Shown piece after piece: positions 11,000 to 63,550 of a DNA stretch of 64,000 bases. The notes under the pieces were generated by a model. That model did not search any database. It saw nothing but the letters and a program-made list of their open reading frames with translations, and was not told the DNA's origin. The DNA comes from Siphonodentalium dalli (Eukaryota; Mollusca; Scaphopoda; Gadilida; Siphonodentaliidae): contig CP136061.1 in the NCBI GenBank assembly GCA_032622095.1, positions 86,402,324-86,466,323 on the forward strand, in the 5' to 3' direction. Numbering within the stretch: the first letter of the stretch is position 1; each line of letters starts with the position of its first letter. The translations under genes and the position numbers were made by a program.

Positions 11000-11032
11000 A
11001 CATCACAGTGATTTGGGAGGTCACGAGCTCTT

Positions 11033-15990: not shown

Positions 15991-15994
15991 TTAA

Positions 15995-18857: not shown

Positions 18858-18868
18858 TCCATTTCAAT

Positions 18869-36622: not shown

Positions 36623-37762
36623 TTACTTTTCCACATCGCCGGTGTGGATTCTCTTGTGTATCACCAGTGTGCTTGATGTACTGAATGATTTTTCACATAT
36701 ATCGCACTCATACGGTCGATCTCCGGTGTGGATTCTCCTGTGTGCATTCAAATGGCCCGACTCAGTGAATGATTTTTCACATATATCGCACTTATACGGT
36801 CGATCGCCTGTGTGAATTCTCTTGTGTGCAGTTAAGTTACCCGACTCAGTGAATGATTTTTCACAAATGCCGCACTGATATGGTCGCTCTCCAGTGTGAA
36901 TCTTTTTATGACTTTTTAAATTATTTAATCGACTGAATTCTTTCTTGCATATATCGCACTGATACGGTCGATCGCCGGTGTGAACTCTCGTGTGAGTGGT
37001 CAAATATCCTGCTGCGCTGAAAGCTTTCCCACAAATATCACATTGATATGGTCGATCGCCGGTGTGAACTCTCATATGTGTCGTCAGTTGGCGCGATGTA
37101 ATGAATGATTTTTCACATATATCACACTGATACGGTCGCTCTCCGGTGTGAATTTTTTTATGACCTTTTAAATCATAAGATCGAGTGAATGCTTTCTCGC
37201 ACGTATCGCACTGATACGGTCGTTCACCGGTGTGAATTCTCTTGTGTGCGATCAAATGTCCTGCGGCATTGAAACCTTTCTCACATATATCGCACTGATA
37301 TGGCCGACCGCCGGTGTGAAATCGCGTATGTATCGTCAATTGGCTCGATGTTGTGAATGATTTTTCACATATATCACACTGATACGGTCGCTCACCGGTG
37401 TGAATCCTTTTATGACTTTTTAAATCATATGATCGAGTGAATGCTTTCTCGCATATATCACATTGATACGGTCGATCTCCGGTATGAACTCTCATGTGCG
37501 TGTTCAAATGTCCTGACTCGAAGAAAGCTTTCCCACATATATTGCACTGATACGGTCGATCGCCGGTGTGAAATGTTTTATGTATCATCAATTTGCTCGA
37601 TGTGATGAATGATTGTTCACATATTTCACACTGATACGGTCGATCACTAGACTGAACTCGCTTATGTGTTGTCAGGTTGCCGGATTCCATGAATGCTTTT
37701 CCAAATATATGACATATATCGCACTCATATGACCGACCATGAATCCATTTGTGTGCAGTCAA
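36623..37762 (-). CDS. C2H2 zinc-finger array 3 (13 fingers)
   Basis: A 379-codon frame with 12 canonical C2H2 fingers and one degenerate first finger (insertion between cysteines, last His replaced by Gln). Linkers are HTG(D/E)RPYQCDIC. Paralogous to array 2, sharing finger types such as ITSSKL, (N/S)AAG.L, TRSYDLK and TESGNL. The frame ends IHTGDVEK followed by TAA in the last linker. Remnant fingers on both sides and shared flanks with array 2 mark it as part of a segmental duplication. It probably encodes or encoded a nuclear DNA-binding protein. No effector domain and no clear initiator exon are visible, so it may be a single exon or a remnant. Confidence 0.8.
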   Translation of the reverse strand: MTAHKWIHGRSYECDICHIFGKAFMESGNLTTHKRVQSSDRPYQCEICEQSFITSSKLMIHKTFHTGDRPYQCNICGKAFFESGHLNTHMRVHTGDRPYQCDICEKAFTRSYDLKSHKRIHTGERPYQCDICEKSFTTSSQLTIHTRFHTGGRPYQCDICEKGFNAAGHLIAHKRIHTGERPYQCDTCEKAFTRSYDLKGHKKIHTGERPYQCDICEKSFITSRQLTTHMRVHTGDRPYQCDICGKAFSAAGYLTTHTRVHTGDRPYQCDICKKEFSRLNNLKSHKKIHTGERPYQCGICEKSFTESGNLTAHKRIHTGDRPYKCDICEKSFTESGHLNAHRRIHTGDRPYECDICEKSFSTSSTLVIHKRIHTGDVEK

Positions 37763-37960
37763 AGTGTTTGATCCAATGAATCAATTTCCACAGATATCGC
37801 ATTGGTACGGGCGATCGCGGTTGTTGGTTGTCATGATTTCTCACAAAACTGCAGTTCATTGCCAAGTGAAATTGCCTTTGTTTTGTCAGATTACTTGATC
37901 GCTTAAATCCTTTCCCATGTATATCACACTCGTATAGCTGCTCATCTGTGAGAATAGTTT
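37763..37960 (-). pseudogene. decayed zinc fingers upstream of array 3
   Basis: Fragments like 'ccacagatatcgcattggtacg' and 'cccatgtatatcacactcgta' preserve CxxC outlines on the minus strand, frame lost. Confidence 0.6.
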
Positions 37961-42337: not shown

Positions 42338-42601
42338 TTTAAGGTTGTGTGAATTATTTCTCGTGAAGCAACATAGTGATATAATCTACACGCGAATTAC
42401 TTGTTTAAGGTTGTGTGAATTATTTCTCGTAAAGCAACACATTGATATAATCGGTGATCTAACGAATAGTAAATTATAATGCTACTTTGCGGGAACAAAA
42501 TCAAGATGAGAAACAGAAATGAAAAGTTGGTCGCAACAAACAGGTAACATCGTAACACTGTGTAACTATATTAGATTAGATTAGATTTGATGACAATTTA
42601 A
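42338..42601. other. segmental-duplication flank and giant-element target
   Basis: Matches 22475-22620 up to 'acactgtgta', then 'actatattagattagattag', 'atttgatgaca' and TTAA at 42598-42601. A tandem duplication of 'ttgtgtgaattatttctcgt' with 'aagcaacaca' is present at 42345-42440. Confidence 0.6.
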
Positions 42602-42650
42602 AGTAACTGGTCCAGATTTTGTGGTTCTGCTTACTGGCAGCTGCCAGTAA
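42602..42650. repeat. left TIR and subterminal palindrome of the giant element
   Basis: The 15-bp TIR is followed at 42631-42650 by the perfect 20-bp palindrome TTACTGGCAGCTGCCAGTAA, whose arms resemble the TIR text AGTAACTGG. It could be a binding site or a hairpin; the role is inferred. Confidence 0.8.
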
Positions 42651-42749
42651 CAAGAGGTGCTAAAAATAGTACGCAGGTGTGCATCTATAAATAGATTCCA
42701 TTTTGGTGTTCCCCCAATTCCAGCGGATAGCACCAGCAGACTTAAAAAC

Positions 42750-43061
42750 ATGGCGTCGAACACAAAGAAAGCGAAGCGTTCACTTGGTTTTTTAAATGAA
42801 CCAGATGAATTAGCGTGCGAATGCACCAACACGTGCAACAGAAAGGGTGATCCAATGAGGAGAGGCATGTGCCCGTGCCTATCAAGCCAGAATTTTTGTA
42901 CCCCAAAGTGTACTTGTGGGTCAAAAAAAATGAAATGCCAGAACCGTCCTGAGAGGACGACATTTGCGTTGACCGATTCGACTGTCGCTGAGCCTGTGTC
43001 CACGGACTACCCATTGGACTACGACTCGGATAGCGACGATAGCGACGATGACCCACACGAG
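42750..43061 (+). CDS. ballast gene exon 1 (CXC-like Cys cluster)
   Basis: First ATG in an open frame that has no other ATG upstream. Encodes MASNTKKAKRSLGF, the nine-Cys cluster and the acidic tail. Ends GAG before donor GTGAGA at 43062. Confidence 0.85.
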
Positions 43062-46000
43062 GTGAGATAATATTTTTCCATAGTAAATAAATTATTGGTT
43101 ATTGTTTTATCTTGACTATTAAAAAAATAGTTCTTGCTTCCACTGAGACTCTGCATTCAATTTTCATCGTCATTGCCGCCCGATGATTGCGGACGCTGAG
43201 AAAAATTATTTAAATATGACAGTCCAAATTCAAGCTGGTCGTCAAATTCACAACCATATGTGATAAAATGGTTATTTATTTTGTGGGAACCATTATTTTG
43301 CCACTGACTTGGGGGGGGGGGGGGTGGTTGGAGCCATTACTGCATCAGGCACTATTCCTTCATTATTTGATAAATATTCTTGAAACTTGAAATTTGTATA
43401 ACTAAATGGCCTGCCCAATATGAATCTTGTGTACTGGTCTCAAGATGTGCCATTAAAGGGACACAAGGTACTTACAATGGGTGTAAAATGTGCAAAAAGT
43501 ATAAAAGTCTGTAAAAAACATCACCAAGAAGAAAATGGGAGAATTAGATTAACTTTGTTCTTATTAGCATTACTGATTCTCCTCCAATAACAATATTTAG
43601 CATTTTGAAACTACTGTTATGTTTACTTTTGTGACAAACAAAATTAGCGATTTGTCAACCCTCTTACTCTTCTTCATCTGTACGCCGTTTTCGGACAACC
43701 TCTATATATATGTAGAGTAAGCATATGTATTTACAGCTACAGTAAAATCAAATCAAAGGAGCATATGGCCAAAGGCCGTATGTTATGAGCATTAGTTCGG
43801 TTTAGAGTTCATCAGTAATGTATTATATCTGTGTAGTAGGTGCAAGGCGATCTGTATGGAATTGTAGATTTCCAACAAATAACCTGGGTATCATTACTAC
43901 TCTTGAGTGCCTAATAAACGTACAGGGTGGAATAATAGTACAGGTTGGAAAATGTCGCATAACTGAGTAATAGTACAGGGCGGAATAAACGTACAGACTG
44001 GAAATATTAGTACCATACATCCCAACAAAACGCACCATCTGACTGGTTTACTGATGCCATGTGACAGAAATAGTTTCGATGGATAGCCAGGTCTGTGAAT
44101 CTACAGTGTGCTGATCACTGTCAACAATCAGAGTTCATTTATCTATGAATAACACAATTTAAGATTGGTGAATTATTTCTGTTGGTTAATTTAATAAACG
44201 TACAGGACCAAATAACGATCGTACAGGTGGGAATTTTACCTCGATTTTAATAATCGTACATGTATGTTTATTAGGCACTCAAGAGTATCATATCAATTGG
44301 ACCATCAACGTTTATTAAATATAGATCGATGATTGGACTTTTATTGGAAATTCTACAATAACAGTAACTACTAATGTTTGTGTAAACACAATGCTTTTGA
44401 CATGCGAAATCTCATTTTGGACATTTGTTAACAACAAAGTCAATTTATTCTTTCATGAACTTGCTGATACTAAGTTGTTATATAGACTTCTATGTTATTT
44501 CACATGAACCCACTTCAATCTTCCATATCTGGAAATAATATTTTAGAAGCAAATGTTTAAAATACTTATAAATTTTCAGCTCTCAGTGGCCTTCTGTGAA
44601 GATGGGGTCGACACATTAGTGGATGTGGACTATTGTCCAGATATGTCAGAAATGAGTCTGCAATCGTTAGCTGAACAGACCGCTACTGCCAGTGTCGGTG
44701 ATCAGGTGAGAACTTATGAGAATTTCATGTTGTATCTACACAACACCTTGATTTATTACTTTCATGACTTGAGCTTTCTGAAATTTTGCAAAAACCCTGT
44801 GCCAATGCATTCTCTTATATATGAGAGCAACATGTATTTATCACATAATTTGGCCATAAAAGCAGTTTCATAATTATCGGTAATAGACACGTTTAATATC
44901 AGCGCGTGCGATGACGTCACGGCGTTCTTCAAATAACTTGCGATCGCTGTAGTTTATGATTGTTGTTTTTGATGAATATTGCGCGTTGCTTCGGGTTTAT
45001 TTGATCATGTGATAAAAGGTATCTCACACTCGTCCTATTTTATACGTAATTTATCAACCTCGTCCTCTAAATTCTATTTGAGCCTCGGTAAACCTCGGCT
45101 CAAATCGAATTTAGTGAACTCGGTTGATAAATTCCGTATAAACTAGAAACTCATGTGAGCTCCTCTATATAAGAGATAAAAGAGAATACATTGTCCTAAC
45201 AATATTGACCTTGATCATGTAACAATGTGCATTCTCTTATATATACATATGCGAGGCTCCATATGAGAGACTCTCATATACATGTATAAGAGAATGCACT
45301 GGCACCGCTCCCATTTTGAAAGGGTTAACAATTTATTCATTGGGGTCAAACTAAAATTTAATGTCAATTTATTATATAACACATTCTTAAAATACAACAT
45401 ATCTTATTCCTGAGGATGTAAGTACATGTAGAGATTTTGTTTTTACATGTATCAACAGATCTGATATTAGTCTGCCCAAATCAATCGCATATCTAAATCC
45501 AAATCATTTCCAATTGATATTTAAGCAATAATTTAAGTTTTTGCATTGAAAATGAACTAGTGACCTTCTTGACGATTACACACTGAGTATTCTGATCGCT
45601 TATTGGTTAAACCATCATCGCACCCATTTTGTCTACTGCAAAATCACTTCGTAAATATTTTTAAATATAGGAAAGAGGTTTTATGTTGCCATAAATGTGA
45701 CAGTATTCCCGATGGTAGTGAATAAATTCAATGAAATCATGTTTTCTTGAGATATTTCTTCTTTTTATTATAAGAAAACATTTGTGAAATATGAGAGTAT
45801 ACTTGTTGGCTTTAAAGATGGATTATCTCTTTAAATAGGTAACTTCCTGGGTATGAAATAAACGTACGAGTTGGAAATCCCTTCTCGGAAACGATTCTAT
45901 CAATTAATATGGGTATTATTTTTATATTATTATTATATTCAATTAATGGGACACTTCTTTGTTCTATAAATAGAACATTTAGATACAGACCTAAAGCTTG

Positions 46001-49000
46001 GTGCTCTGAATGAATGAGAGTCGCAAAATGTCTCCGATTGATTAGAACTATTGTAATATTTAGTGCAAATCAAGTAGACCTGGAGCGTGGCATATTCTTA
46101 TTTCAATGATGAAAATAATGAAATAAAAGACGGTCGTGAATAGAAGCACACTTATTGAATGGCAGAGTTATTTTATACCAAAAAAAATTTATATACACAT
46201 TTCCAGACAGGGGTCTTTGATTCGTATTTATTATTTCATACCCAGGAACTATATAGATCAAGTTGTAGAAGAGATAATCCACCTTAAAACAAGTCAGTTA
46301 AAAATAATATGATACAGTACAGATTAATACATAGGCCATACAAATGTGTTGAAATCACGCACATGAATTCTTGAAATAAAAAAATCTTTTCAGTGCGCAA
46401 CAAGTTCGATCCACATGATCTATACCAGCATTCACCCTAGTGCAGCATTAAAGATGCTACATGTATGCCAGTGCATTCTCATATATATGTGAGTGTCGTA
46501 AAGGGAGCCTCACATATATGAGGGAATGCACTTGCTTACAATGTCAAGGTAAATATTGTTAGGCCAATGCATTCTTTGATATATGCGAGGCTCTATATGG
46601 GAATAAAAGTCTCGTCAATTATGACCTTGATTGTTCTATATAAGTTTCTCAATTCACATGTCAGCCTGCCAATACGCACACGTAGTCATAGATATCCCAG
46701 TGCCGAATATAGAGCATATACAGTAGCAGTACAAATCACTACTAATTGAGGATGCTTGTGCCATCATTTTGATAGATGCTGGCACAGAAAGTCCCAAGAA
46801 CTGACTATTGTCGTGAATGCCAGCTGACTCGAAACCGCTGCATAGCTCAATTGAAAATGCTTTATCTTTAATTTTGAATCTCGATCGTTTCAGATCACAG
46901 TGGATGATCCTATTGTTATTGGCAATGAAGGTCAGGATAGCAGAGTCAACACACCTCAGCAAGGATCTCCTGCATCATCAACAGATAACGGAGAAGTTGC
47001 ATTGCCATTAGAAACTGCAGGACCATCTCAGTTAGACCTTAATGTAAGTTTCATGAGACCACACTGCTTGAACATGAGATGAGTACCACAACATTTTATG
47101 TAATTGCAAGCCTTGACATAGTATGTATGTCATTTGCAGAAAGGTCCACAGAGGGTGAATTTAGTGATGCTATCCCGCACAGCTGGCTAGCATCACATAA
47201 TTCACCCTTGGGGAATCTCTTTATGTCTAGGTGTCATCTTCTGGGAAGTATCTATAGTCTCAAAATAACAATGTTTTTAGTTACTTCTGTTCTGTATCTC
47301 CTAATTTGCAGTGCAATCTCAACAAGTGCCCATTTGTAAAATGATAGATCAGGTTAGATAAAAAAATAATTAATATTATACTAAAATATTTCTAATAATA
47401 CCTCGCAAATTTAAATACAAATAAGGTAGATAGCTTGTACAGAGGGGAAACATTGCCCATTGGTAATTCAAGCTGTAAATTTGTTCTTATAAAATTATTA
47501 ACTTTCAAAGCAACATCATGGTATTATTCAAGCTTCAAATTCTCAGGGTTCCCCCAAAGTTTAAAGGCACTGATGGATTTGGTTGTAGGTTATAATTTAG
47601 AAATAAAATTTACCAAATTTTATGAAAATTTCCTGAAGAAGATACAAACAGTATAGTAAAATGACAGTATGAATATGATATTATCCACAAAACACATTTG
47701 TGTGAGCCGAGCATTTGTTTATATACTGCACATAAATAGTGCGATACTCAACACCATGGCAATTTTGTTTTTGGGAGAGTAATTCACCATGGTCCATTCA
47801 ACACCAAAATATTGAGTGGCGAGGATTATCAAACGCTATATCGTATGTTTTGTAAATGAAAGTGTCAATGACACTGTAGCTCAAATTGGAAAGTGGAATA
47901 ATTTCATGTGTTACAGTCAATGGAGTGATTAGGAATGTGGAAAGTTGAAAGGCCTCATTATGCAAAGAGTAAAATCCAATATAGCCACTGACAGTCATGT
48001 TTTTTTTGCCGCATGACCCCAAAAAGACACGTTCCCATTTACATGTCATTGTTAACATCTATCACAAATGTCATGATGATCCGACAAAAGATACGACCTG
48101 TAGCCTGTGTCAAAGGATTTAGTCATATAAAGAGTAAAATCCAAGATGGCTGCTGGTGGCCATGTTTTTTGGGGCGAATGACCCCAAAATGACTCGTTTC
48201 CATCTACATGTCAATGTCAACAGCCTCATAATGATCTAACCAAAGGTACGACCTGCCGCCCATGCCAAAGTAAATTGTTGACGAGTCACACACAAGGACG
48301 ACAGATACCAATCCATGGCAATAGTTCAAACTTTACAAAGTAAAGTTGAGCTAAAAAAACATGGTGGCAGTTTTAACCAAAGTTCCATAGTGGCGTCTCC
48401 CCGGTGTTGAGTGTTTTGCTTTTCGCACACTCTTTATATACTTTACTGTAACAGAACATTGTTTTTGTTTACTAATGGGGGGTACGATCTACATGTAGCT
48501 GGAAAAAGGTGTGCCCAAAATATGGAATAATGCCCCAATTAGCACACATGAAGACATGCCTTCTTCGTGTATAGTAATATAGATATGTAACTTTACAAAT
48601 TCCTCATCATATGTGATCTGAGCAGTAAAATAATTTTATCAATGTCTATCTAATCTGACGATGTAGTCAGAAACATCATTAGAATGTATTTCTTTGTAGT
48701 CACACCTCATTCAGTTTTCCGCCTTTTAGCCCTCTCTGCTATGAGTGTCTCTTTTTGTGGTCTGGGTACCTTGCTCCTGATAGGGTTAATTCGCTTGGGA
48801 TCTTCTGGTACCCTCTCAAAAGGATCACCCATTCGAACGCCTGATGCTTGTTTTTCGTAGAGAACCTCCAGCAGAAGATTGTCAATGTAGTCATAAGTCT
48901 TGGACACTGGGACTGGTACTGCAGAATGTTGTTGTGTCGCTTTACTAAATGTCATTGTGTACCTTAAAATATAGGAATATATTAAAGTGTTATCTTTCTC

Positions 49001-49509
49001 TCACACAGCTTGTCCAGGAGATGTCAAGAGATGAGTTAATTGGCTTTGCACTTTCTGTGCTCTCAAGCGACCCGTCCCAGGCTCGATACCTCCATCAAGA
49101 CAGGACTCCGACGCCAACACCTGAAGTGCCAACTGAAATAAGGCACAATTTCTGCCGATGTGGACATTGTCGGCTTATGAATCCAGATGAACCATCTACA
49201 TGTTGCCGAAGACAGTTTGGCATCTGCACCACAATAAGTGATAGAATGCAGCATGGAAATTCTATCCTGAACAGAACCCTCTTAACACTAACCATTTGTA
49301 ATAGAAATAATATTCTGTCCATGGAAGATGAGCCATCAAACGCAAATTTGAGATATGCTGCATACACAAACTATGTTTTCTTAAAATGTGGCTACCTTGG
49401 ACCCAGACGGAGAATAGTTATTCCAAGTTGTATTGTTTGGATGATACGAGACCAGTTCCCTTCTCCAGATGGGACTTATACAGGATTTAAACCATCAAGA
49501 TACCACTGA
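42750..49509 (+). CDS. CXC-like / P2X7-ballast domain protein, 4 exons, 362 codons
   Basis: Exons 42750-43061, 44580-44705, 46894-47043 and 49009-49509 are all phase 0, with GT..AG junctions (gtgaga, gtgaga, gtaagt; acceptors tttcag, tttcag, cacag). Residues 1-104 hold nine Cys in a CXC-like pattern (ACECTNTC, MCPC, FCTPKCTC, KC.NR) and an acidic DSDSDDSDDD tail. 105-196 is an acidic/polar linker. Residues 245-362 match the zinc-binding 'ballast' domain of the P2X7 cytosolic tail: FCRCGHC, STCCRRQFGIC, LRYAAYTNY, VIPSCIVWMIRDQFP, GTYTGFKP. No P2X channel or membrane segment is present. It is the second gene of the giant element, starting just inside its left end. Cellular role unknown; zinc and perhaps DNA binding are inferred from the Cys-rich parts. 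Confidence 0.85.
43071..43897. other. ballast gene intron 1, left part
   Basis: Non-coding. Contains a G run of about 13 near 43311 and AT-rich sequence, then a TA-flanked MITE. Confidence 0.5.
43900..44285. mobile_element. TA-flanked MITE (CTCTTGAGTG family)
   Basis: Flanked by TA at 43898-43899 and 44286-44287. The 25-bp TIR CTCTTGAGTGCCTAATAAAC... has one mismatch. Several subterminal repeats like 'aata(a/g)(a/t)cgtacaggg.gga' occur in both halves. 386 bp, in ballast gene intron 1. Confidence 0.85.
44580..44705 (+). CDS. ballast gene exon 2
   Basis: 42 codons between acceptor 'aattttcag' and donor 'gtgaga'. Acidic, beginning LSVAFCEDGVDTLVDVDYCP. In phase with exons 1 and 3. Confidence 0.7.
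44800..44880. repeat. ATGCATTCTCTTATATAT hairpin repeat
   Basis: 'ccaatgcattctcttatata' belongs to a short repeat family with copies at 45225-45300, 46469-46530, 46563-46640 and 52586-52650. Several copies are self-complementary (ending 'tataagagaatgcactggca'). Confidence 0.65.
45022..45160. repeat. imperfect palindrome, about 60-bp arms
   Basis: 'tatacgtaatttatcaacct' and 'tatttgagcctcggt' on the left pair with 'acctcggctcaaat' and 'cggttgataaattccgtata' on the right. In ballast gene intron 2. Confidence 0.8.
45225..45303. repeat. hairpin of the ATGCATTCTCTTATAT family
   Basis: 'gtgcattctcttatatatac' pairs with 'gtataagagaatgcac'. The interior 'gcgaggctccatatgagaga' is shared with copies at 46575 and 52600. 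Confidence 0.75.
45816..46283. mobile_element. TTAA MITE family 1, diverged copy
   Basis: Flanked by TTAA at 45812-45815 and 46284-46287. Ends are AGATGGATTATCTCTTT and ...GAGATAATCCACC. The interior differs widely from other copies, so it is a separate subfamily. 468 bp, in ballast gene intron 2. Confidence 0.85.
46469..46640. repeat. two copies of the ATGCATTCTC hairpin repeat
   Basis: 'ccagtgcattctcatatata' with 'tatatgagggaatgcact' forms one hairpin (46469-46530). 'gccaatgcattctttgatat' with 'atgcgaggctctatatggga' begins a second, partial copy at 46563. Confidence 0.7.
46894..47043 (+). CDS. ballast gene exon 3
   Basis: 50 codons between acceptor 'tcgtttcag' and donor 'gtaagt'. Ser/Pro/Gln-rich linker beginning ITVDDPIVIGNEGQ and ending PSQLDLN. 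Confidence 0.7.
47105..47225. repeat. relative of the 40441 hairpin repeat
   Basis: 'aagccttgacatagtatg', 'gtcatttgcag', 'agagggtgaatttagtgatg' and 'tagcatcacataattcaccc' match both arms of 40441-40583. The outer right arm is lost. Confidence 0.75.
47230..47955. other. ballast gene intron 3, unassigned part
   Basis: AT-rich, no exon or repeat end supported. Confidence 0.4.
47960..48350. repeat. dispersed tandem repeat (about 150-bp unit), copy 2
   Basis: 'ggcgaatgaccccaaaatga', 'cgacctgtagcctgtgtcaa' and 'accaatccatggcaatagtt' recur as in 35480-35885, same orientation. It lies in the shared intronic region, about 360 bp from transposase exon 13. Confidence 0.75.
48707..48944 (-). CDS. transposase exon 13 (C-terminus)
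   Basis: Acceptor 'atgacatttag'. KTYDYIDNLLLEVLYEKQ, VPEDPKRINPIRSKVPRPQK and a basic RAKRRKTE end before the stop at 48707-48709. Located in the last intron of the plus-strand ballast gene. No canonical AATAAA was seen shortly downstream. Confidence 0.85.
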
Positions 49510-52500
49510 GAACATAAGTAATACTACATTGTGGTGTACAAGTTTGCAGTTGAAGTGTGTTGTATATAACATTTTTTAAATATTATAATCTTGTTCTCAT
49601 AATCATCAACCACAAGAGTACAAGACAGAGCGTCGACTATGGCTTGGTTCCACTCTGTTGTACTTGCAGTACCATGTTTTCAACATTTTTTTGATAAAAA
49701 AAATTCACCACAACTGAACTGCGAGTACACCATAGTCCCAAGACATTGTTATTTTTTAATTACTTGGTTTCCAGATTGCCCTACCCAAAAAGATGTCATT
49801 CAAACAATTTTTTTTTATTCCCGCTAAATGTGACTATTAATCGAGCTCTATTAGAAAATAAATTAGAAAAAAATGTTAAAATAAATAATAAAATTTATTG
49901 AACAGCGAAGGCTGTCACTGATGTTTATGGTATGCTACATGAGTGCTAGTAAAAACATTCGGAGACAACTAAATGTACCAGATATTCCAATGGGTATGTT
50001 GAAAATCAATGACAACATGGCGTTAGTTGATATTTTTTATTATCTATCCGTATCTTACTCTATAGACATCTCAAAATAAAAAAATATATATTTGCCTGTG
50101 CATGTGGACATCGTCAAAGCATAGACAATCTGGTTTTGATGAGGAAATTATTAAGCGGCAAATATATTATTTCTCCTTACGTTAATTGTTTTTCCTCCCC
50201 TACTCTTGAATAAAACAATCTGTAACCCAAGTAATAAAATGCCTATTAATGCATCCGGACAATGTTTTGAAGCTCACCTCAATGTTCCATCTTTCGTCTT
50301 CGCTTGTGGTCTCTCAAGATGCCTGTTGTGATCGATTGCTGCTAACTGGTTTCTCATTTTGTAACTGACATAACTGGAATGAAGAATAAAACGTTTTCCA
50401 ATTATATGTATGGCGAATTAGATATTATGGCAATGAACTTTCTGATATTTATTACACACTTGTTCCTAGCTGTTCCATATTTACTAATCCGTATGCAACG
50501 TACGTTCCATACGCATCTCGTTGACGTAAAATGACGTACATGACGTTCACCTCAACCACGAAACTGGAACTATTTAACTAAAAAAATCATGATAGATGAC
50601 AAACACGCCATGTATGAGCCTAAATAAACCTTCTAATCCTGTATTTTTAATGCACGGATTCTAGGATGCGAAGCGTGTAATAAACACAGAACGACACTAT
50701 GTGTAAATGGGTTTGTCGATGGGTTTGTCGTGCTGTCGCGGAAGGATAGAACTCGAGGCGCAAGCGCCTCTCGTTCTATCCTGACGCGACAGCACTCGTG
50801 CCGTATTGACAAATCCATTTACACATCGTGTCGTTCTGTGTATGTATTTTTAATGCACTGACTATAGGACGCGAAGCGTGTAATAAACACAGAACGACAT
50901 GATGTGTAAATGGGTTTGTCGATACGGCACTCGTGCTGTCGCGGAAGGATAGAACTCGAGGCGCTTGCGCCTCTTGTTCTATCCTTCCGCGACAGCATTC
51001 GAGTGCTGTATCGACAAACCCATTTACACATCGTGTCGTTCTGTGTATGTATGTGTTCCATGTCTATGTTTACCAGCTGCTACTTAGTCTCTTTGACCTA
51101 TGGCATATCCAAGTTTACAAGCATGGCCATGATGATATCCACTAAATATTTAAAAATGATATCTTTATATGATGCGGATTCGTTCAGCCCTAAAATATGT
51201 CAGAATATACACAACCATCAGACCAGGTATTTCAACATTGCGAGTGAATTTGGAAATATATAAATACTACTCACTTAAATGCCATCCTCTTGGGGCAATA
51301 CATTAGGATTAGTGAGTGGAAGAGCTCCAAGTGGCTAGTATGCCTGAAACACAATACATAATAATGTGAGAATTAAACCATACATTGCATACAAGGATCA
51401 TACAATGTACAATGTAAGTTTTCGACATAATTCTTTAGCAAAACCCATGTATAACTAGTTTGCATGTAATGTGTTTTTCGTTTAAATATAATAAAACTTT
51501 TGTCTTGAAAATGTTACTCCACATTTTATTTCATCAACTTTGTTGCAAGTTCAGACCCACTCTGGTACTTACTTCCCTATGCTAATACCTTATGAAATTT
51601 ATTTTAGTTATAAACCCTTCCAATACCGTCCACATCACTCAAAATGAGAAACATTGGTTTAGTGATAAAACTATGGGTTTAGGAAATCTTGCCCTATCAT
51701 CATTCCATTTCTCATGGCATGATCCACACTATGAGTCTTGGGATGATGTTAACCTCAGTGATTTCAGAATAGGTCACACTAATACAATGGGAAGGAAACT
51801 AATTATCATATTAACCCTCAGACTATAAATAATTCCCAAAGTTGCAGGCAATAGCATTCCCCTTGAAAAAGAACAGACTATCACGCCTTGGTAGATCCCA
51901 CATGCCTTCAGTTCAAATCAGTACTTAACCCTTCCATGACTGGAGCTTCCTGAATTACATTGGCCTAAATGTAAACAATATTTAATTTGACCCTTTAAAG
52001 GGGTACTGTACGCCATTTTCATTAAATTTCCGGTGACAACAACGATCTAATATCGATAATATATAGAAACATAAGTAATTTGAGTCGAAGATGTATTCTG
52101 TAAACGTTCAGGTTAATAGGTTATCTTAAAATTTAATAATTTAAAAGTTAATAATTTGATATAAATTGAATTTATGACTGGAGCCATAAAATGGCGTCAA
52201 TTAAATTACGAATTACCGTAATCAAAAATAGTAATTGAGGGATACTGGATTTTTAAACCGATCGCACACACGATTGCTTAAAATATTATGATGATACGGG
52301 GAGAACACTCAAGCCACTCACTGACTAGCGACGGTACAATAACTTAAATGATTATATGGGACTAGTATGCATATAATATAACTTTCATTTGATTCATTTG
52401 GTTGAAAACTTTACAAAAATTACTCGACAACGACAATTTGTATTTTTGCATTCCGGTAAATTTGTCATCCGTAACATGACTTCGTACTCAACAGACTTTC

Positions 52501-55500: not shown

Positions 55501-58500
55501 TAGTTGGTCTCCCGGCAATCCACCACCTTCAAGCACACTATCTCTTTTGTCTCCGAATTCATTAGACTATATGAACAGTACATTGCTGAGTGACCTGGTG
55601 AATCATTCCGTCCATCACCAGCTAGGATCAATTCAGAATCATCCTTGGTCAAAATTTGCTCTTGCATATTGTTGAAATACTTATTTACAGCAGGAGCAAC
55701 GTATTTGGACTGTATCCTGAAAGAGATAACGCAATTGAATCTAAAAATGCTCCTCAGACCAAAGAAAACAATATTTATATTAATTATTTTGGATTTGCCT
55801 ACCGACCTTATTTAAACCCCCTACTCTAAAGTTTTTAGCTCAACTTTGTAAAGTTTGAGCTATTGCCATGGCTTTGTCGTCCGTGTGTGCGTGTGTATGT
55901 AAGGCGTCAACAATGCAGGCTACATGTCGTACCTTTGGTCGGATCATTATGAAATTTGTCATAGCTGTTGACAACAACATTTAGACCAGAATGATTAATT
56001 TTGGGGTCATTCGGGAAAAAAACATGGCCGCCAATGGCCATCTTGGATTTTAAAATTCAATCCATTAGCACGGGCTACAGGCCGTACTGTTTATCTGATC
56101 ATCATCATGCATGTTAATATTGATATGTAGATGGGAACGAGTAATTTTGGGGTCATTCGGCCCAAAAACATGGCCGCCAGCAGCCATCTTGGATTTTACT
56201 CTTTGTATGACTAATTCTTTAGCACGGGCTACATGTCATACTTTTAGTCTGATCATCATAAAATTTGTCATGAATGTTAATAATGACATGTAGATGGGAA
56301 CGAGTCATTCGGCCAAAAAACATGGCCGCCAGCAGCCATCTGGGATTTTACTCTTTGTATGACTAAATTCTTTAGATTCTTTAAAAATCTATTGAGTAAA
56401 ATACGCACATGAAAAGTCATAACAATATGTCAAAATGAAAACTGAAAATTTCAGCCTACCTACCGACCCTACTTTTTTCCCGATTGTAACCCAAACCAGA
56501 CATTTAATTTTGTTTGGCCTCATACATTTCTTGTCTTTTAAAGATGGATTATCTCTTCCTGCAACAAGTTTTGAATAGTTTCCTGGGTATTAAATAATAG
56601 CTATGAACCGAAGACCCCTCCCGGGAATATTGATCTTATTTCTAATATTTTAGGGGGAGGGGGTATAAGCCACAGTGTCATTGGGGGGGGGGTATATCAA
56701 GCATGTTACTAGCATCTGTGTTTCTGTTAATGAGTGTTCTGCTAATATTCTGATACCCCCATATGCTTTTCATTAAGTAGCGTTCACACAAAGCATAATG
56801 AAAACACATATTACAAAAATGTTTACCTGTAAAAGGTCTGGTGCGATATGAAACCCAATTTAAGAAATTTTGCCATCAGTGCAATTTTCTGGTAATGGTT
56901 TCCAGACGTCAATGCTGCAGCAGGTAGCAGCAAATTTCCTGCTCGCATCCCTTCACACAAGGGTTGTGAATGCCACTCTCTGTTTACATGGCTGGTGTCT
57001 GAAGTGCAGCTCCATGACACACAGAGACAGGTACCCTGCATTCTGTTGTGAAATATAATTTCTGCAGAGCAGGTACGGCATTCTGTTCCAACACATCCCT
57101 TCAGCAACTTGATAAGACATTCTGTGAAGGCGATGCATTTGGCTGCTTTGATGCATCCTTCTTTAGACATTTTAGTCTCAAGGTGGGCTTTTTTTAGTCT
57201 TCTCTTTTTTGCCACCCCTTCTTCAAAATCCCAGCCGGGGTCATCAAACATTATATTTGAGGCATCAAACTCTCTGGAAAAGAAGAACATACAAACTATT
57301 TTCTGTATCCATTGTAAAACGTATTTGTCAATGTGAACCTGGTGATATGCAATTGGAACTACATTTGTTGTACCGGTAGCTCCCATCTAGGGCAATTCTA
57401 AACTTTCATGTAAATTTTAAAAACAATTCCCTAATTTCAGCCATAAGTCTTCAACTCGGGAATGTTATTTTATATGTTTCAGCTTTCATAGAAATATATA
57501 TTACAGTACAATGAAAAATTGTCATGGAAATAATTTTTGTCAGTACATGTATTCAGCTAACCAAAATCTTATGTATACTGGTAGCTTGACAATCAGAGGA
57601 TTTCCCTGATGCAGGGGCTATATGATCCCTGACAGGGGTGCTTTAGAATCCTGTAAGCAACTGGAATGACCAATGTGGATTTTCTAGACCAAATATGAGT
57701 AGATTTGGTTGACTTTGTCAAAGTTATCTCACGATCGGTCATACAATTGCTAGAAATAGACAACTAACTAATGAATTGAATCAGTTGACATTGTTTGTTC
57801 AAGTTAGCTACATGTAATAGTCATAAAATTGATAAATACTTTTGATAATACTTTTGTTTCATAGAAGCTGAACTACTGCATGTAGTGTGCACTTGAATAA
57901 CATAGACCAGGCTTTCAACATACTGCAGATGAAGCATTTCACGAACTATGTCAATATAGACAAATAGACTTTCAAAAGTGTATAACCTTCGGCTGCACTC
58001 ACCCTAGTGAAGGATATGTGGAATCATTCTCATCATCATCATCACTATCTGTGTCTATGCCACGAACATCACCTTCACGTACATATCCTGCAGACCTGTG
58101 AAATGAGTAACATTAAACAAAATATTCCTCAATCTTTTGATGCATTCATGTTGTATGATTACAAATTAGTATCACGGGAATCCAGATACACAAATTTGGA
58201 CTAAATGGGAAGCCTGTATTAAATGAACTGAACCTGTACAGTAGAATAACTTCCAACCACTTCTTGCAAAAATTCCGAAACTAACAAAAGCTATGCTTCC
58301 TAGTAAAATATTGAGTCCTCAAATCTGTATGAATTCTAATTCATGCCTGTTCTTGTTGCTGTGATGCTATTTTATAAAGTGAAAGATTCCACTTCCATAG
58401 AAATTATTTAATAGTGTGAGAAAATGAATTCAGTAACCTTCATAATGACAGTTGGGTTAGACCAATAGTACACTATTAGCTGAGCAATCATCAGATGTGA

Positions 58501-61500
58501 AAGTATTTAATAGTTTGCTAACAAACTCTTAAAGGTACGGTTGGCCTTGGCGGTGGGTATCCTGTGAAAATATTTCCACCCGTCAAAAACCGCCACAAAC
58601 AGAAAGAACAACAAAATGTAGACAGACTTTGTCCGTATACAAATAAGATATATCGCATAAACAGTATGTTATTGTCATATTTTCGACCATTGTTATGTAA
58701 ACAGAAGCCTAAAAAGTAACTTTTCTGGTGTTTGTTGATATTATGATGGTAAACATAAAGAGCGTTCTTTGTGGATTAATTCCTGATATGGAACGAATAA
58801 AGAGCGTTTATGCCATTTGTGTGTGATTAGCCAGCAGCATTGTGTTGTCTTCTGTAACACAATCAGGCTCTTGCTTAGGTAACATATAGTAAATCTTTAT
58901 GATAACATGCTGTTTACGCGATGGTCATGGTATTATATGAACGAAACTGTATGCGTTTTTATGTTTTTTTGTTTACGGTGATTGGAACAAATATGAATAT
59001 TTTCGACAACTAAGGCCTCACGTGCCTTTAAGTCATGGTTCATTAATGTAGACAGGCATATGAGATAATATGACTAACCTTCCAAATGAAGTCTTTTTCC
59101 CGGAGATTGGAGTTGAATGTTGCTGCTGCATTTGAGCATCTCCTACAAGGATTTATATCATAGTCACGTCATAGTCAATGACAATTAGAATTGTAAATTG
59201 GATTTCTTCGATGAAGACGGAAGTGGAAATTATAAATCATGTTCACTGGCATTACAAAAATAGGGACCACATTCAATGGTTTATATACTACAATCAGAAG
59301 TGTCTGAACCACCCATGTGATTGCCAACAGTGTTATCATTCATCTGAGAATATATCAAACTTAAAAATAATTCAAAATATACAGCAACACATTTCAGCCA
59401 AATCTATTGTGTGCAATACATGTATATTAATCATAACTCCCACACATTATGGCTCAGTACATGGAAGTGACGGGAGTGACGGAGTCACAGTATTATTGCA
59501 TTTCATGATTCCATGATAACAATTTACCATTCATCTACATGTACATGTATGTGAAGTAATAAATGGAAATGAAAAATCATACCTTCCTCTGTAAGGCGAA
59601 GATCAAGTGCTTCCAATCCAGCTAAGAAGGATTTCCTGAAAAAGGAATTCAATTCTATAAAGCTGTCACTGAGGTGGCGGTGACAAATGCTGTAGATGTG
59701 TACTCTCAAGTGCCTATCAAATGAGTGTTGACAGACTCGAAACTAATAACCTTATGGGAGAGAATTTCCCACAATTGCAGCAATTATTTGATAGAGACAT
59801 AGAGTGATATTGCCATCAATATTATTAATTGAAGCCAAAAATCCCACCCCTCACTATTAGGCCATCACTATTATTAATTAGGCAGTTTAAGTATCAACGA
59901 TATTAGCTAATTCCAAGCAGCAGCTCTACAAAAAAGGTTGAAAATTACTTGTAACTTGATTTCTAGGTAATGAAATGTTTGTGTTTCTCATACACATACA
60001 GGTACTCAGGGCTGGCGGTATAGAAAATCCAGGGGTGCTATTAATCGCCCTCCTAGATTTGCCTAGGGGTGCTATAGCCCTCCTCAACTGTTAACATTAT
60101 GATTTAAGTCTATTCGCAGAGTAACAGACATGTAATTGGGCATGCTGATGGTTGCTGAGCTGGAGTGCATTTTGAATATTCTATCATTGGAAGAGTGAAG
60201 ACAGGAGTGGGACAATGATATATTGATAATATAAATATTATCTAAACCATTTTGTGAAATATAATAAACTTATTATTAAAGAATTTCGAAATTTAATGAA
60301 ATCAATGTGCATTCCTTGCCATAAAAATAAAGGAAGGTTATTGTCTATAGACATGTTGAAAATCACTCCACAATTTGTGACAAATGGCACAATGTTAACA
60401 CGAAACAGGGTCAATTGGCTCAAGTTGTGAATCACCAGAGTCTGAGCTGGAATAATCATCGGTGTTACTGTCCATATATATGCCAGTCACTTACACTATC
60501 GGCGTCACTATCACTGTCTGAAGAACCAGAACTGGCATTGCTGGTCGCAGCAGACACAGATGAATTGGCTGATACTAGTAACTTTTGTTTCTTACGGGCA
60601 CGCCGGTAACGACCACGTGCCGCGAATGAATGCTATAGCCCATTTCACCAGGTGCGTTAAATCATTTTATAGTATGTATCTGCATATTTTTATATGAATG
60701 GTGAACAAACTCATAATAACATTTATATGTAGAACAGTGGGAGGGTTAAATATTTTTTAAATTCATCCACTCACCTCTTTTTGCTATGTCGTATAGGCGT
60801 TTCTGGGATGTAATCAATTTCAGTTACCATTGGATGTTCTTCTGGCTCACCTTGAAAAGGTATCACTTCCGACATTTCACTGAAACAAGATGAAAACATA
60901 TGAATTTTTTAAGATAGTGTTGGGAAATTAATGTTAGAACATTGAGAATTTGTGGTGACTGTATCAAACTTTCAGGTTGTTCTGACTCATATTTTGCATG
61001 TCAAATTTCTAGCAACATAACAGATATATGTACTACCGGTATGTACATGTATACATGTACAAGAGTGATATCTACTGTATACAAACTATATAAATTTTAA
61101 AACATTTCACCAGTAATGTTGTAAACATATGTGCAGCATGTATAACAAAAGTTCAGTATAAGTGACACAAGTTTAATCTATTGTTCATCAATGGATTATT
61201 AATATCAATAATGTTAACATGGTTGCGTCTGACAGCATAATATTACAGTATTGCTGCTGTCATGTACATACCGGTATACATGTATATCATTGCCATGAAT
61301 CTCTACTCCAGCTACGCATGTGGAGATCGTATTCCACAACTACAAAACCTGGGAACTTTTTCATGTTCTGTCAGGGAAGTTTATAACATTGAAAAAACAG
61401 TGCATGCAAAGTATTTCTTGGAGTTTATACTTATTCCCCTGGGTTCTTGACACAAATTTCCAACAACTGTAGCTCTGATGGAGTTAAAAACATTATGGAC

Positions 61501-63422
61501 CTGTTCGGGTGCGTGAAATTGATAAGTTTGTTCTCAAACACTATGCCAACCTGGGGAATGTAGCATTCGACTAACATCATTAAACATTTCAATGAAATCG
61601 GTCATAAGACTCCATAGAAAACAGTCTGAACTATGCTAATTTGTAAATATTTATATATCGATTCGGGACGCAACTATTGACGATAAACTAACACAAATGA
61701 TTTCGCCATCGAGAGTCATGGCATTTAATTAATATATAAGAATGGTGGTGTGTATTGTCAACTCTGATTAATAATCGTAAAAAATAACTACTTCAGCAAG
61801 ATTATTCTCACTTTCTATTTGATAACCCTACCGGATACCGGAGTGTTTCACATCACTTTAATTCAATTGTGTTCCTGAAAGTCTGGCGCCCATCAGCAGT
61901 TTATTTTCAGTTAATTTTAATAACCATTGGAACGTAAACAATAATCTCTAACAGAAATTATGGCACACACGAAAACTAAATGTCATTCAGATAAAAATTG
62001 CAAAACATGTGTACCCTTTGGCACATTTTTGGTGAGTGACCCCCATCAGACTGATGGGGCAGTGATGGCCGCTAATCAGCTGATGTCACTTGACTTGTCG
62101 ACGATGAACACGTCAATATTTTAGGTGAACCACTGATCAATCTATAATAGCCGATGATGGTGATTGGACTAAACATACCCCACTGGACAAAACAAGTACA
62201 TGTATTTGCCGTTCGGCCATGGTGTCAGAGTTTGTAACTGCAGTTGAGCACTGCGGCCGAACAGCAAGCACACTGCGACCGAAAGGCAACTACACCGCGG
62301 CTGAACGGCATGTACACCGTGGTTAGATTTCTGGTTTGTATCGTCTTTTTTCAGTTTAATGAACGTACACCGCAGCAACTACACCATGGCCGATCGGCAA
62401 GTACACCCCGGCCCAACTGTAGTTAGCCGGTGGAGCCACGGTGTAGTTGCATTTAAGCCGCGGTGGCAATGCTAACCGCACCGCAGTTAAGTGGACACTT
62501 GTTTTGTCCAGCAGGGTATCAATTGGTCTCCATGACAAAAAGGGGGGGGGGCTATACGGTTTTGCATCTGTTCATGTCACAGTTGTTGCCTGTTGGAATT
62601 TTTTGTTAGGGATAGGGCATCATATTCATAGCCATACTTCCGCTGAAGGGGTCACTCTCACCAAAAAAAGTGCTGAAGGGTACACAGGATTTTCAAAATG
62701 TGCTGAAGGGTAGACAGGGTTTGAAATGTCGTTCTAAAGGCATTCAGTTTTCGTATCTGCCATGATTTCTGTTAGAGAATAATTGTTTACCTTCCAATGA
62801 ATATTAAAATGTACTGAAAACAAACTGCAAATGGGCGCCAGACTTTCATAAACACAATTTGAGTAATGGTGTTCGTGCCGATTACAAATCATGTGTACCC
62901 TTCAGCACATTTTCAAACCCTGTGTACCCTTCAGCACTTTTTTTGGTGAGAGTGACCCCTTCAGCCATATGATACTGCCCATGGCATAGGCATAGCCATA
63001 GGCCTCTCTCACTCTCAGTCTCTGTTTTTATGGGGTTTTGTCACAAATTTCCAACATGCATGCCTCGATCGGTCAGTGCCACTGTTTGAAATTGAAAAAT
63101 AACAACATTTAACTTACGATTCACGGTCAGAGTCGATCTCTTTTGAAAGTTTTGCTGATGTCGATGGCAGGTCCCTCTGAGTCTGAATCTTCGACGTCTT
63201 GATCGCATCGGGGGCATTCACGAAATTTGCACAGCTTCTGCTGTGAAGTGCCAGCAAATGCTTCAAAAAATCTGTGTTGGAGCCACCGCACGCGAATCTG
63301 TGGCGCTCCCATTCTTCGTTCAACTCCCCCAGATATATTCTGGTCGAGTTGTATGCACGTTTCCTCCGCGTAGTCGCTATCTTCTTTGCTTCAGCCGAAA
63401 AAAATTTCTTCTTCGGTGCCAT
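48707..63422 (-). CDS. Kolobok-type DDE transposase, 13 exons, 737 codons
   Basis: Exons on the minus strand: 63422-63118, 60879-60775, 59635-59583, 59142-59079, 58095-58003, 57273-56827, 55716-55385, 54574-54492, 53979-53872, 53231-53011, 51343-51275, 50373-50278, 48944-48707. All 12 junctions are GT-AG with matching phases; the sum is 2214 nt, an exact 737 codons plus stop. The N-terminal region has YLGELNEEWERHRFACGG and FLKHLLALH. A Cys-rich block follows in exon 6. The DDE core is LAGDGRNDSPGHSAMY (D390), LVTDGHTQI (D457) and HQYDLWHVAKTISKK (D480). Then come HLWWCAEHC, IMHHVQNKHKW, HLELFHSLI, PKRMAF and LAAIDHNRHLE. These match Kolobok-like proteins known from fish and invertebrates. 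Length is near that family's usual size. No stop or frameshift seen, so it could be functional. Confidence 0.88.
49009..49509 (+). CDS. ballast gene exon 4 (P2X7-type ballast domain)
   Basis: Begins after 'tctctcacacag' with LVQEMSRDELIGFALSVL (a helix), then a Thr/Pro linker and the ballast domain to the TGA at 49507-49509. AATAAA-type signals occur at about 49878-49890. The acceptor is only 64 bp from the last exon of the antisense transposase gene. Confidence 0.9.
   Translation, partial: LVQEMSRDELIGFALSVLSSDPSQARYLHQDRTPTPTPEVPTEIRHNFCRCGHCRLMNPDEPSTCCRRQFGICTTISDRMQHGNSILNRTLLTLTICNRNNILSMEDEPSNANLRYAAYTNYVFLKCGYLGPRRRIVIPSCIVWMIRDQFPSPDGTYTGFKPSRYH
49510..50277. other. 3' region of the ballast gene and antisense intron
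   Basis: Probable 3' UTR of the plus-strand gene, with AATAAA-like hexamers at about 49878-49890. On the minus strand this is the last transposase intron. Confidence 0.5.
50278..50373 (-). CDS. transposase exon 12
   Basis: YVSYKMRNQLAAIDHNRHLE then RPQAKTKDGTL between 'cttcattccag' and 'gtgagc'. The LAAIDHN block is a strong family mark. Confidence 0.85.
50641..51048. repeat. two tandem long hairpins (203-bp unit)
   Basis: Unit starts 'gtatttttaatgcac' at 50641 and 50844. Each unit holds an inverted repeat. The second (50887-51046) pairs 'acacagaacgac' through 'ctcgaggcgc' with its complement over about 80 bp, almost without mismatch. Centres: GAGGCGCAAGCGCCTC and GAGGCGCTTGCGCCTC. GC-rich against an AT-rich background. 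Between transposase exons 12 and 11. Confidence 0.9.
51275..51343 (-). CDS. transposase exon 11
   Basis: 23 residues, HTSHLELFHSLILMYCPKR then MAF, between 'ttgtgtttcag' and 'gtgagt'. In phase with exons 10 and 12. Confidence 0.8.
51999..52581. mobile_element. TTAA MITE family 3, 583 bp, 17-bp perfect TIR
   Basis: TTAA at 51995-51998 and 52582-52585; TIR AGGGGTACTGTACGCCA and exact complement. Interior non-coding. In the intron between transposase exons 10 and 11. Confidence 0.92.
52586..52985. repeat. hairpin-repeat copy and truncated TTAA MITE family 4
   Basis: 52589-52650 is a copy of the ATGCATTCTC repeat. 52686-52983 matches the right 295 bp of the complete element at 58534-59027 ('aataaagagcgtttatgcta', 'acacaatcaggctcttgctta'), ending CACGTGCCT then TTAA at 52984-52987. 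The left arm is missing. Confidence 0.8.
53011..53231 (-). CDS. transposase exon 10
   Basis: ASWTKIMHHVQNKHKW, CGHAIPLPAKDRGNKPWIKK and REIVFAKSVLDNMAYVKNF between 'ttccttgtag' and 'gtgaga'. Its donor is about 28 bp from a nested MITE end. Confidence 0.85.
53240..53865. other. transposase intron between exons 9 and 10
   Basis: No repeat ends or other features identified. Confidence 0.4.
53872..53979 (-). CDS. transposase exon 9
   Basis: 36 codons, phase 0 both ends, with LLLWIGSIKRHLWWCAEHC, a conserved Trp/Cys block after the catalytic core. Donor GTAGTT. Confidence 0.85.
54085..54480. other. transposase intron with poly-C run
   Basis: A run of about 18 C at 54384-54401 following 'cca'. 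Otherwise AT-rich, unassigned. Confidence 0.5.
54492..54574 (-). CDS. transposase exon 8, third acidic motif
   Basis: 28 residues ending KTISKKIIK. HQYDLWHVAK carries the presumed third acidic residue. Acceptor 'ttatttcag', donor 'gtctgt' (less usual). Confidence 0.85.
54616..55065. mobile_element. TTAA MITE family 2, complete, 450 bp
   Basis: TTAA at 54612-54615 and 55066-55069. Ends AGGTACTCAATCC and exact complement; the arms remain inverted repeats for about 115 bp with mismatches ('attactatttctttggcttc', 'gattcgagtcgaggaacc'). In the intron between transposase exons 7 and 8. Half copies lie at 860-1106 and 1755-2002. Confidence 0.92.
55385..55716 (-). CDS. transposase exon 7, first two catalytic Asp
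   Basis: Acceptor 'ctctttcag', donor 'gtaagt'. Contains AGDGRNDSPGHSAMYCSYSL with the first catalytic Asp and LVTDGHTQIRSTM with the second. Confidence 0.9.
55840..56370. repeat. dispersed tandem repeat (about 150-bp unit), copy 3, inverted
   Basis: Three units with 'ggggtcattcgg' at about 56003 and 56149 and a shortened version at 56304. Each is followed by 'acatggccgcca' and 'catcttggattttac', then 'agcacgggctaca'. It begins 'agctcaactttgtaaagttt', the complement of the end of copy 2. Confidence 0.8.
56542..56655. repeat. TTAA MITE family 1, left-arm fragment
   Basis: After TTAA at 56538-56541: AGATGGATTATCTCTTCC, 'atgaaccgaagacccct', 'attgatcttatttctaatatt'. It then breaks off at a G-rich stretch. 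Confidence 0.8.
56827..57273 (-). CDS. transposase exon 6, Cys-rich block
   Basis: 149 codons after 'cttttccag'. Includes CIAFTECLIKLLKGCVGTEC, IIFHNRMQGTCLCVSWSC, AGNLLLPAAALTSGNHYQ and FLKLGFISHQTFYR, all family-typical features before the DDE core. Donor GTAAAC. Confidence 0.85.
57390..57990. other. transposase intron between exons 5 and 6
   Basis: Non-coding; nothing recognised. Confidence 0.4.
58003..58095 (-). CDS. transposase exon 5
   Basis: 30 codons including an acidic run (DTDSDDDDENDS) between 'catttcacag' and 'gtgagt', in phase. Confidence 0.7.
58534..59027. mobile_element. TTAA MITE family 4, 494 bp
   Basis: TTAA at 58530-58533 and 59028-59031. Ends AGGTACGGTTGGCCTT and the complement of AAGGCCTCACGTGCCT, an imperfect TIR. 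Shares about 295 bp with 52686-52983. In the intron between transposase exons 4 and 5. Confidence 0.85.
59079..59142 (-). CDS. transposase exon 4
   Basis: 20 codons (DAQMQQQHSTPISGKKTSFG) between 'ccttgtag' and 'gttagt', in phase with its neighbours. A Gln-rich linker. Confidence 0.65.
59583..59635 (-). CDS. transposase exon 3
   Basis: 17 codons (KSFLAGLEALDLRLTEE) between 'ctttttcag' and 'gtatga'. Phases agree on both sides. Confidence 0.65.
59720..60490. other. transposase intron between exons 2 and 3, left part
   Basis: Non-coding, nothing recognised. At 60497-60600 the minus strand has an open Arg/Lys then Ser/Asp-rich stretch followed by GTAAGT. It cannot be spliced in phase and is left out of the gene model. 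Confidence 0.4.
60775..60879 (-). CDS. transposase exon 2
   Basis: Acceptor 'cttgtttcag', donor 'gtgagt'. Encodes an acidic linker, EMSEVIPFQGEPEEHPMV to RHSKK. Joins exon 3 (59635-59583) in phase; a coding-looking Ser/Asp stretch at 60497-60600 is not needed. Confidence 0.7.
60900..62170. other. transposase intron 1, left part
   Basis: AT-rich with 'acatgtatacatgtac'-type runs near 61040 and 61265. At 61850-62060 there is a partial copy of the inverted-repeat family described at 62615-62975. Confidence 0.45.
62178..62516. mobile_element. TA-flanked MITE with GC-rich internal repeats
   Basis: TA at 62176-62177 and 62517-62518. TIR CCC(C/T)(A/G)CTGGACAAAACAAGT. The interior repeats a GC-rich unit like 'tacaccgcggccgaacggca' about six times in both orientations. 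339 bp, in transposase intron 1. Confidence 0.85.
62615..62975. repeat. inverted-repeat element ('tgctgaagggtacac' family)
   Basis: Left: 'gctgaaggggtcactctcac', 'aagtgctgaagggtacacag', 'aatgtgctgaagggtagaca'. Right: 'tgtacccttcagcacatttt', 'tgtacccttcagcacttttt', 'gtgagagtgaccccttcagc'. A second, partial copy lies at 61850-62060 ('tgtaccctttggcacatttt'). Confidence 0.8.
63118..63422 (-). CDS. transposase exon 1
   Basis: Starts at MAPKKKFFSAEAKK, a basic stretch that may act as nuclear localisation signal. Continues through the N-terminal EEWERHRFACGGSNTDFLK block to a donor GTAAGT. The apparent frame further upstream has no ATG. Confidence 0.85.
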
Positions 63423-63485
63423 GTTTTTAACCTGAAGCACGCGAGGGAATTCCAATTAATGACGTCACGGTTTACTTCTTCTCCA

Positions 63486-63546
63486 TACATAGGAATTTGC
63501 CTTCCTATGTTACCGAACGCACCTCATCGGATCTGGACCAGTTACT
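63486..63546. repeat. right TIR and subterminal hairpin of the giant element
   Basis: The TIR ends TCTGGACCAGTTACT at 63546. About 20 bp inward an inverted repeat ACATAGGAA-(6)-TTCCTATGT lies at 63487-63510. It differs in sequence from the left palindrome. Confidence 0.8.
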
Positions 63547-63550
63547 TTAA

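Follow-up and report, generated by a model that had tools for sequence, protein, structure and literature searches.

Known two-gene Kolobok elements

The closest described relatives of the element reported here are the Kol0 families of Kolobok transposons, which, according to the passages of Kojima and Bao (2022; PMC9587614) that concern them, encode a transposase and a second protein, KolX, with a ballast fold. The same passages describe P2X7 as the product of a fusion with a KolX and derive both the P2X7 ballast and Nanor from KolX; the P2X7 C-terminus and Nanor, both host genes, share the C-terminal domain of KolX and its cysteines (PMC7016195, PMC9587614). Ballast-domain genes across animals are the subject of PMC7016195, the available text of which has no mention of transposons. 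Since both the pairing of the Kol0 transposase with KolX and the tie to P2X7 are covered by these passages of PMC9587614, the pairing found here is not new. Kol0 resembles the present element in its use of TTAA, its 5'-RR/YY-3' ends, its DDD/E and DxxH motifs and its ballast-bearing KolX, whereas for Kol0 these passages state neither a length nor an intron number nor an interlock of the genes, the present element having 20.9 kb, 15 introns and interlocked genes.

KolobokP, in the passages on it in PMC9587614, is also a two-gene Kolobok with the second gene on the opposite strand. Long direct repeats at the termini (about 450 or 660 bp), a His-Me nuclease and a length of only ca. 4-4.7 kb distinguish it from the element studied here. 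For Xenopus tropicalis, the available text of PMC6004289 lists ten full-length Kolobok elements of 6,763-13,907 bp, which share TTAA, AG ends and large size with our element but are shorter, and whose coding spans of ca. 2.3-2.5 kb appear to be unsplit; KolX is not mentioned there. In the available text of PMC6431247 neither Kolobok nor TTAA is mentioned. The open-licence literature searched gave no account of an intron-rich, 20-kb or interlocked Kolobok.

The element and its ends

The window, i.e. the whole stretch of 64,000 nucleotides of Siphonodentalium dalli DNA that was analysed (C1:86402324-86466323), belongs to a genome of 2.23 Gb in 9 contigs. It harbors an element of 20,945 bp (42602-63546), of which 3,321 bases are coding (Table 1). 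The perfect 15-bp inverted repeats adjoining TTAA that the original prediction placed at both limits are indeed present: the repeat AGTAACTGGTCCAGA occurs without mismatch at exactly two sites in the window, on opposite strands and each next to TTAA. An exact TTAA-flanked 15-bp inverted pair of any sequence, no more than 40 kb apart, appeared in 1 of 100 first-order Markov simulations, and the real window holds 23 of them, namely the element ends, a nested repeat of 583 bp (51995-52585) and a further 21 that fall within 15991-45834; hairpin repeats are common at 16-46 kb, where most of the 23 fall.

Table 1. Positions of the element's ends, exons and nested repeats in the window
Feature	Position	Strand	Basis or remark
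Left TTAA (target site duplication)	42598-42601	.	
Left terminal inverted repeat AGTAACTGGTCCAGA, 5'-AG end	42602-42616	+	
KolX exon 1, cysteine-rich N-terminus	42750-43061	+	joined frame
KolX exon 2	44580-44705	+	joined frame
KolX exon 3	46894-47043	+	joined frame
Transposase exon 13 with stop; within KolX intron 3 (47044-49008)	48707-48962	-	joined frame
KolX exon 4 with stop, P2RX7_C (ballast) domain; within transposase intron 12 (48963-50277)	49009-49509	+	
Transposase exon 12	50278-50373	-	joined frame
Transposase exon 11, start of the predicted E column of the catalytic triad	51275-51343	-	joined frame, alignment
Nested TTAA-flanked repeat, 587 bp	51991-52577	.	absent from C7, unmatched in C8
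Transposase exon 10	53011-53231	-	joined frame
Transposase exon 9	53872-53979	-	joined frame
Transposase exon 8, DLWH motif	54492-54574	-	joined frame, alignment
Transposase exon 7, GDGRNDSPGH and TDGH motifs	55385-55716	-	joined frame, alignment
Transposase exon 6	56827-57273	-	joined frame
Transposase exon 5	58003-58095	-	joined frame
Nested TTAA-flanked repeat, 499 bp	58529-59027	.	absent from C7 and C8 copies
Transposase exon 4	59079-59142	-	joined frame
Transposase exon 3	59583-59635	-	joined frame
Transposase exon 2	60775-60879	-	joined frame
Transposase exon 1, start codon at 63422	63118-63422	-	joined frame
Right terminal inverted repeat	63532-63546	-	
Right TTAA (target site duplication)	63547-63550	.	

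Exact matches to TTAA plus AGTAACTGGTCCAGA number 10 in the whole genome, and four of them make up two convergent pairs with ca. 20 kb between the members; by our own arithmetic, chance would give 0.02 occurrences of this 19-mer on the two strands of 2.2 Gb. When up to two mismatches were allowed, the reversed control pattern gave more matches than the pattern itself (43 versus 31), so that only exact matches carry weight. Right ends elsewhere in the genome rest on this 19-base pattern. For the six single-ended places, no partner end was found within the 10 kb read from each. An exact match on C5 (L017, 9469462-9469480) is otherwise unlike the element ends and possibly represents a non-autonomous relative.

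Other parts of the window contain a long C2H2 zinc-finger array detected by Pfam scan (10160-11002, minus strand) and two more recognized by eye (21050-22018 and 36623-37780, minus strand), a DDE_1 transposase frame (25372-26214, plus strand, E 6.7e-27) of a different type of DNA transposon, and RVT_1 reverse transcriptase frames that are remains of retroelements (17553-18863 and 18869-19933, minus strand; 33100-34077, plus strand).

The transposase and KolX genes

The minus-strand gene consists of 13 exons with a joined open frame of 743 amino acids, and the plus-strand gene of 4 exons with one of 362 amino acids. All 12 and 3 introns, respectively, are bounded by GT..AG, and their total of 15 is the number originally predicted. 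The start codons, too, lie at the predicted distances: the ATG at 63422 is base 125 counted from the right end, and that at 42750 is base 149 counted from the left end. Because the distance between gene start and the nearer end is 125-150 bp for both genes, the promoters are probably located at or near the inverted repeats. A TATA-like CTATAAATAG (42685-42694, plus strand) may be part of a KolX promoter, and TGACGTCA at 63460-63467 would fit a promoter near the right end; both are putative.

A transposase model of 659 amino acids, ending at exon 12 with a stop that overlaps the splice donor, was dropped, and the tails of transposase relatives located exon 13 within KolX intron 3. The shorter model, without exon 13, served for the Pfam scan and for the alignment of relatives. 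With its residues 200-659, 52 relatives at E≤0.001 were found among 4,088 candidates; the top-ranking one belongs to the hemichordate Ptychodera flava (42% identity, E 5.2e-104), and others are from molluscs, corals and a goby. In the alignment of the transposase with 12 relatives (13 sequences) the GDGRNDSPGH, TD, DLWH and E610 columns show conservation or come close to it. Interpreted along the lines given in the relevant passages of PMC9587614, these columns point to a DDD/E triad with a C/DxxH motif, in which D390, D457, the DLWH at 480-483 and E610 would take part. No match to the transposase was found in the PDB, and of 26 pattern matches of its alignment in viral contigs none was confirmed. 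The piggyBac class, which also uses TTAA, was considered and rejected: the 659-residue model has no Pfam match at E≤1, the Pfam domain carried by relatives is mostly PF20700, and the element ends are AG..CT.

In the plus-strand gene Pfam recognizes a P2RX7_C domain (E 4.8e-27), and comparison with P2X7 structures gave E 1.5e-14 with seven cysteines aligned. Its cysteine-rich N-terminus has no match in Pfam. None of 2,587 candidates from the protein collection proved to be a relative of the whole protein, nor did any of 212 for the domain. A scan of Rfam gave no match. On the basis of the predicted zinc-binding ballast domain of P2X7 type, we identify this gene as KolX, the accessory protein of Kol0. 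The second gene had been called unrelated in the original prediction; its P2RX7_C domain instead makes it the published partner of the Kol0 transposase. KolobokP was rejected as the parent class, as none of 13 direct-repeat families joins the two ends of the element and the second gene has P2RX7_C only and no His-Me finger.

The class proposed at the outset, a Kolobok-type TTAA element, agrees with what was found: TTAA duplications flank the copies on C1 and C7 and TTAA marks the C7 insertion point, the ends AG...CT have the 5'-RR and YY-3' form given for Kolobok in the relevant passages of PMC9587614, and the predicted triad and DxxH motif are in place. We put the probability at roughly 0.9 that the element is a two-gene Kolobok DNA transposon fitting Kol0, this placement being made via KolX. 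The minus-strand gene would then encode the DDD/E transposase and the plus-strand gene the KolX protein with its zinc-binding ballast domain. By analogy with the family, the transposase would bind both ends, excise the 20-kb unit and paste it into TTAA, and KolX may act as a helper, perhaps (speculatively) by binding DNA or the complex through its cysteine-rich N-terminus.

Size and nested repeats

The length of the element results from its 15 introns and from repeats nested in them; the nested repeats account for part of it and the introns for the remainder. TTAA-flanked hairpin repeats that begin with AGATGGATTATCTCT extend from 63547 over ca. 0.5 kb (L002), from 15988 to 16932 and from 31179 to 31757, with pieces at 45811-46293 and 56537-56627; one adjoins the right TTAA of the element and others sit in its introns. 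Size, introns and a second gene had all been predicted to be unusual for a cut-and-paste element. As compared to the ten Xenopus elements this is true of size and introns, whereas a second gene is already part of the published Kol0 plan. The large, many-intron plan also recurs in another family of the same genome (L041, see below).

Copies of the element and its movement as a unit

A second complete copy, inverted, with both genes and the same ends, lies at C7:154652179-154672282 (20,096 bp). It is 98.7% identical to the C1 copy in the window (260 mismatches among the 19,729 columns aligned, plus 32 gaps), with one repeat-rich 1-kb stretch at 92%. The similarity begins and ends exactly at the TTAA-flanked repeats, and the 1.5-kb flanks of the two copies show no significant similarity (best E 0.09). 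Of the two genes on C7, KolX retains an open frame, but the transposase, read exon by exon, has two in-frame stops. Between the copies the transposase differs by 1 synonymous change and 17 in amino-acid-changing codons, so that no protein constraint is visible; for KolX the figures are 6 and 7. A third, damaged copy on C8 (43,076,269-43,120,063) matches window positions 44284-63550 with an exact right end. It retains most exons of both genes, with KolX exon 2 and transposase exon 1 interrupted, and its left end and KolX exon 1 were not found; it was read on both sides of 43,097,000-43,110,563, where transposase exon 3 would fall.

Transposase exon 7 DNA is found at three places in the genome only, the C1, C7 and C8 copies, and KolX exon 4 DNA at the same three plus one weak place in two pieces. 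Only two complete copies (C1 and C7) were found. The left-end DNA has 7 places: C1, C7, four on C3 (75-92% identity) and one on C8. This last one, C8:95167462-95167610 (L019, L025), holds the first 149 bp of the element at 100% identity, followed by unrelated sequence; the match stops 4 bp short of the KolX start codon, and the place is a very recent truncated element end.

Empty sites were sought with the joined C7 flanks as query, for which 40 matches were scored out of 555 first-look candidates. Two of these are the C7 halves themselves, which meet in TTAA, and the other 38 all span the insertion point at 77-89% identity. Four of the repeats were inspected; one has TTAA at the insertion point and three have CTAA. 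They are diverged paralogous copies at loci different from the C7 site, and the C7 copy thus interrupts a repeat at TTAA. The search for further copies holding both genes at the same ends accordingly yielded the complete C7 copy and the partial C8 copy, and that for empty sites paralogous repeats that lack the element. As the original prediction had it, the block moved as one: the complete C7 copy, with the same ends in unrelated flanks, shows that the entire unit, with its ends and introns, moved or was copied from one TTAA site to another.

KolX and transposase pairs in the genome

A search of the genome with PF20478 gave at least 111 matches (150 of 236 candidates scored), grouped into at least 100 loci, and none in 14 control genomes. 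With a 213-residue piece of the transposase at least 108 matches were obtained (150 of 153 scored), in at least 75 loci; all these genome-wide counts are lower bounds. At least 35 of the 75 transposase-core loci have a KolX within 40 kb, convergent in all 35, as compared to a mean of 0.27 and a maximum of 3 pairs in 1000 random placements. The 35 pairs are not independent, because three are copies of the present family and others include several copies of other families. Among the scored matches, 40 of the 75 transposase-core loci have no KolX within 40 kb and 65 of the 100 KolX loci are unpaired.

Stop-free transposase frames of 632 amino acids (C8:189806704) and 531 amino acids (C7:27300417) suggest families with few or no transposase introns. 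A further multi-copy KolX/transposase family has loci that start at C1:53871491, C2:189440570, C5:229369393 and C7:27490229; its KolX is in two pieces 3-4 kb apart and its transposase core is split at another point, so that introns differ between families.

Interlocked 3' ends

In the gene models the two genes converge and are interlocked, the last exon of each sitting in the last intron of the other, with no coding bases in common. The MuDR element of maize likewise has two convergent genes that start near its inverted repeats, one of them accessory; it differs in being ca. 5 kb long, not interlocked and equipped with another accessory protein. Twelve KolX loci were taken with 1.5-kb flanks, L046-L048 being the family of the window element. 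At L043, L044 and L045 the C-terminal transposase exon lies antisense just before the last KolX exon and the penultimate one antisense after it (upstream KolX exons unread). The same arrangement is found at L041, for which a longer sequence was used. L042 has the C-terminal transposase exon only, i.e. half of the interlock; at L049, a shortened relative of L043, the KolX exon lies one transposase intron earlier, and L050-L052 have no transposase within 1.5 kb. In the KolX domain L043-L045 are 94-97% identical and form one family, to which L049 is 87-89% identical; the window family, L041, L042 and L043-L045 are mutually 34-45% identical. The full interlock is thus seen in two further families (L041 and L043-L045) and one side of it in a third (L042).

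L041 (C1:78.526-78.556 Mb) was followed with tblastn, which located KolX exons 1, 2 and 4 (exon 2 weakly, E 0.17; exon 1 with one in-frame stop) and transposase exons 1, 6-9 and 11-13, with limits matching those of the window element. At the junctions inspected, acceptor-like AGs occupy the expected positions or lie close to them, and donors are clear only where the match ends at the exon end. Exact 10-base ends gave no pair; under a relaxed criterion and with another 4 kb of sequence one pair emerged, at 78528250 and 78555441, the sole TTAA pair lying outside both genes in which 10 or more of the 14 end bases match (11/14). L041 is therefore a probable element of 27.2 kb and a second giant family.

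Alternative explanations

Low copy number, with transposase exon 7 at three places, is what a segmental duplication would leave, and the C7 copy could in principle have been produced in this way instead of by transposition. We regard this as scarcely credible, since similarity stops exactly at the TTAA-flanked repeats, the 1.5-kb flanks differ and the C7 copy splits a repeat at TTAA. It is also very improbable that the locus is a domesticated host gene pair, i.e. an old insertion retained for its proteins. Both frames of the window copy are open despite the nested repeats in the introns, and the available text of PMC6004289 reports repeated domestication of Kolobok transposases in Xenopus, but the second copy, 98.7% identical and on another chromosome, has intact ends and an already broken transposase, and the C8 copy is disrupted. 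The Kol0-like transposon remains the preferred reading, and what is new in it is the giant, intron-rich, interlocked form; the two-gene plan was already known.

The simplest explanation of the interlock is that several families inherited it from a common ancestor. It is likely that size and interlock are passive, the introns having swelled by nested repeats and the interlock being merely inherited and functionless: the nested repeats are not the same among copies, and the split points are common to families, as plain descent predicts. The arrangement has been retained between families that are only 34-45% identical in the KolX domain, which argues against pure passivity, although drift is still compatible with it. 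We consider it rather unlikely that the interlock is a maintained device of a giant intron-rich Kol0 branch that prevents the two genes from drifting apart over long periods. As the last exons lie in each other's last introns, any break that separated the transposase from KolX would destroy both genes, and under such a maintained device overlapping convergent pre-mRNAs would let each gene restrain the other; the interlock as a lock or as antisense control is speculative.

Implications

DNA transposons of the TTAA type are pictured as compact, whereas the present one carries 15 spliceosomal introns and moved as a unit of 20 kb. Its interlock provides a concrete model of the way in which two genes of a transposon remain together. 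The P2X7 ballast domain has been traced to KolX in published work; this genome has ca. 100 KolX loci, and at least 35 of these have a transposase core as neighbor, in every case in convergent orientation. The abundance and convergent pairing of KolX make its role in transposition testable.
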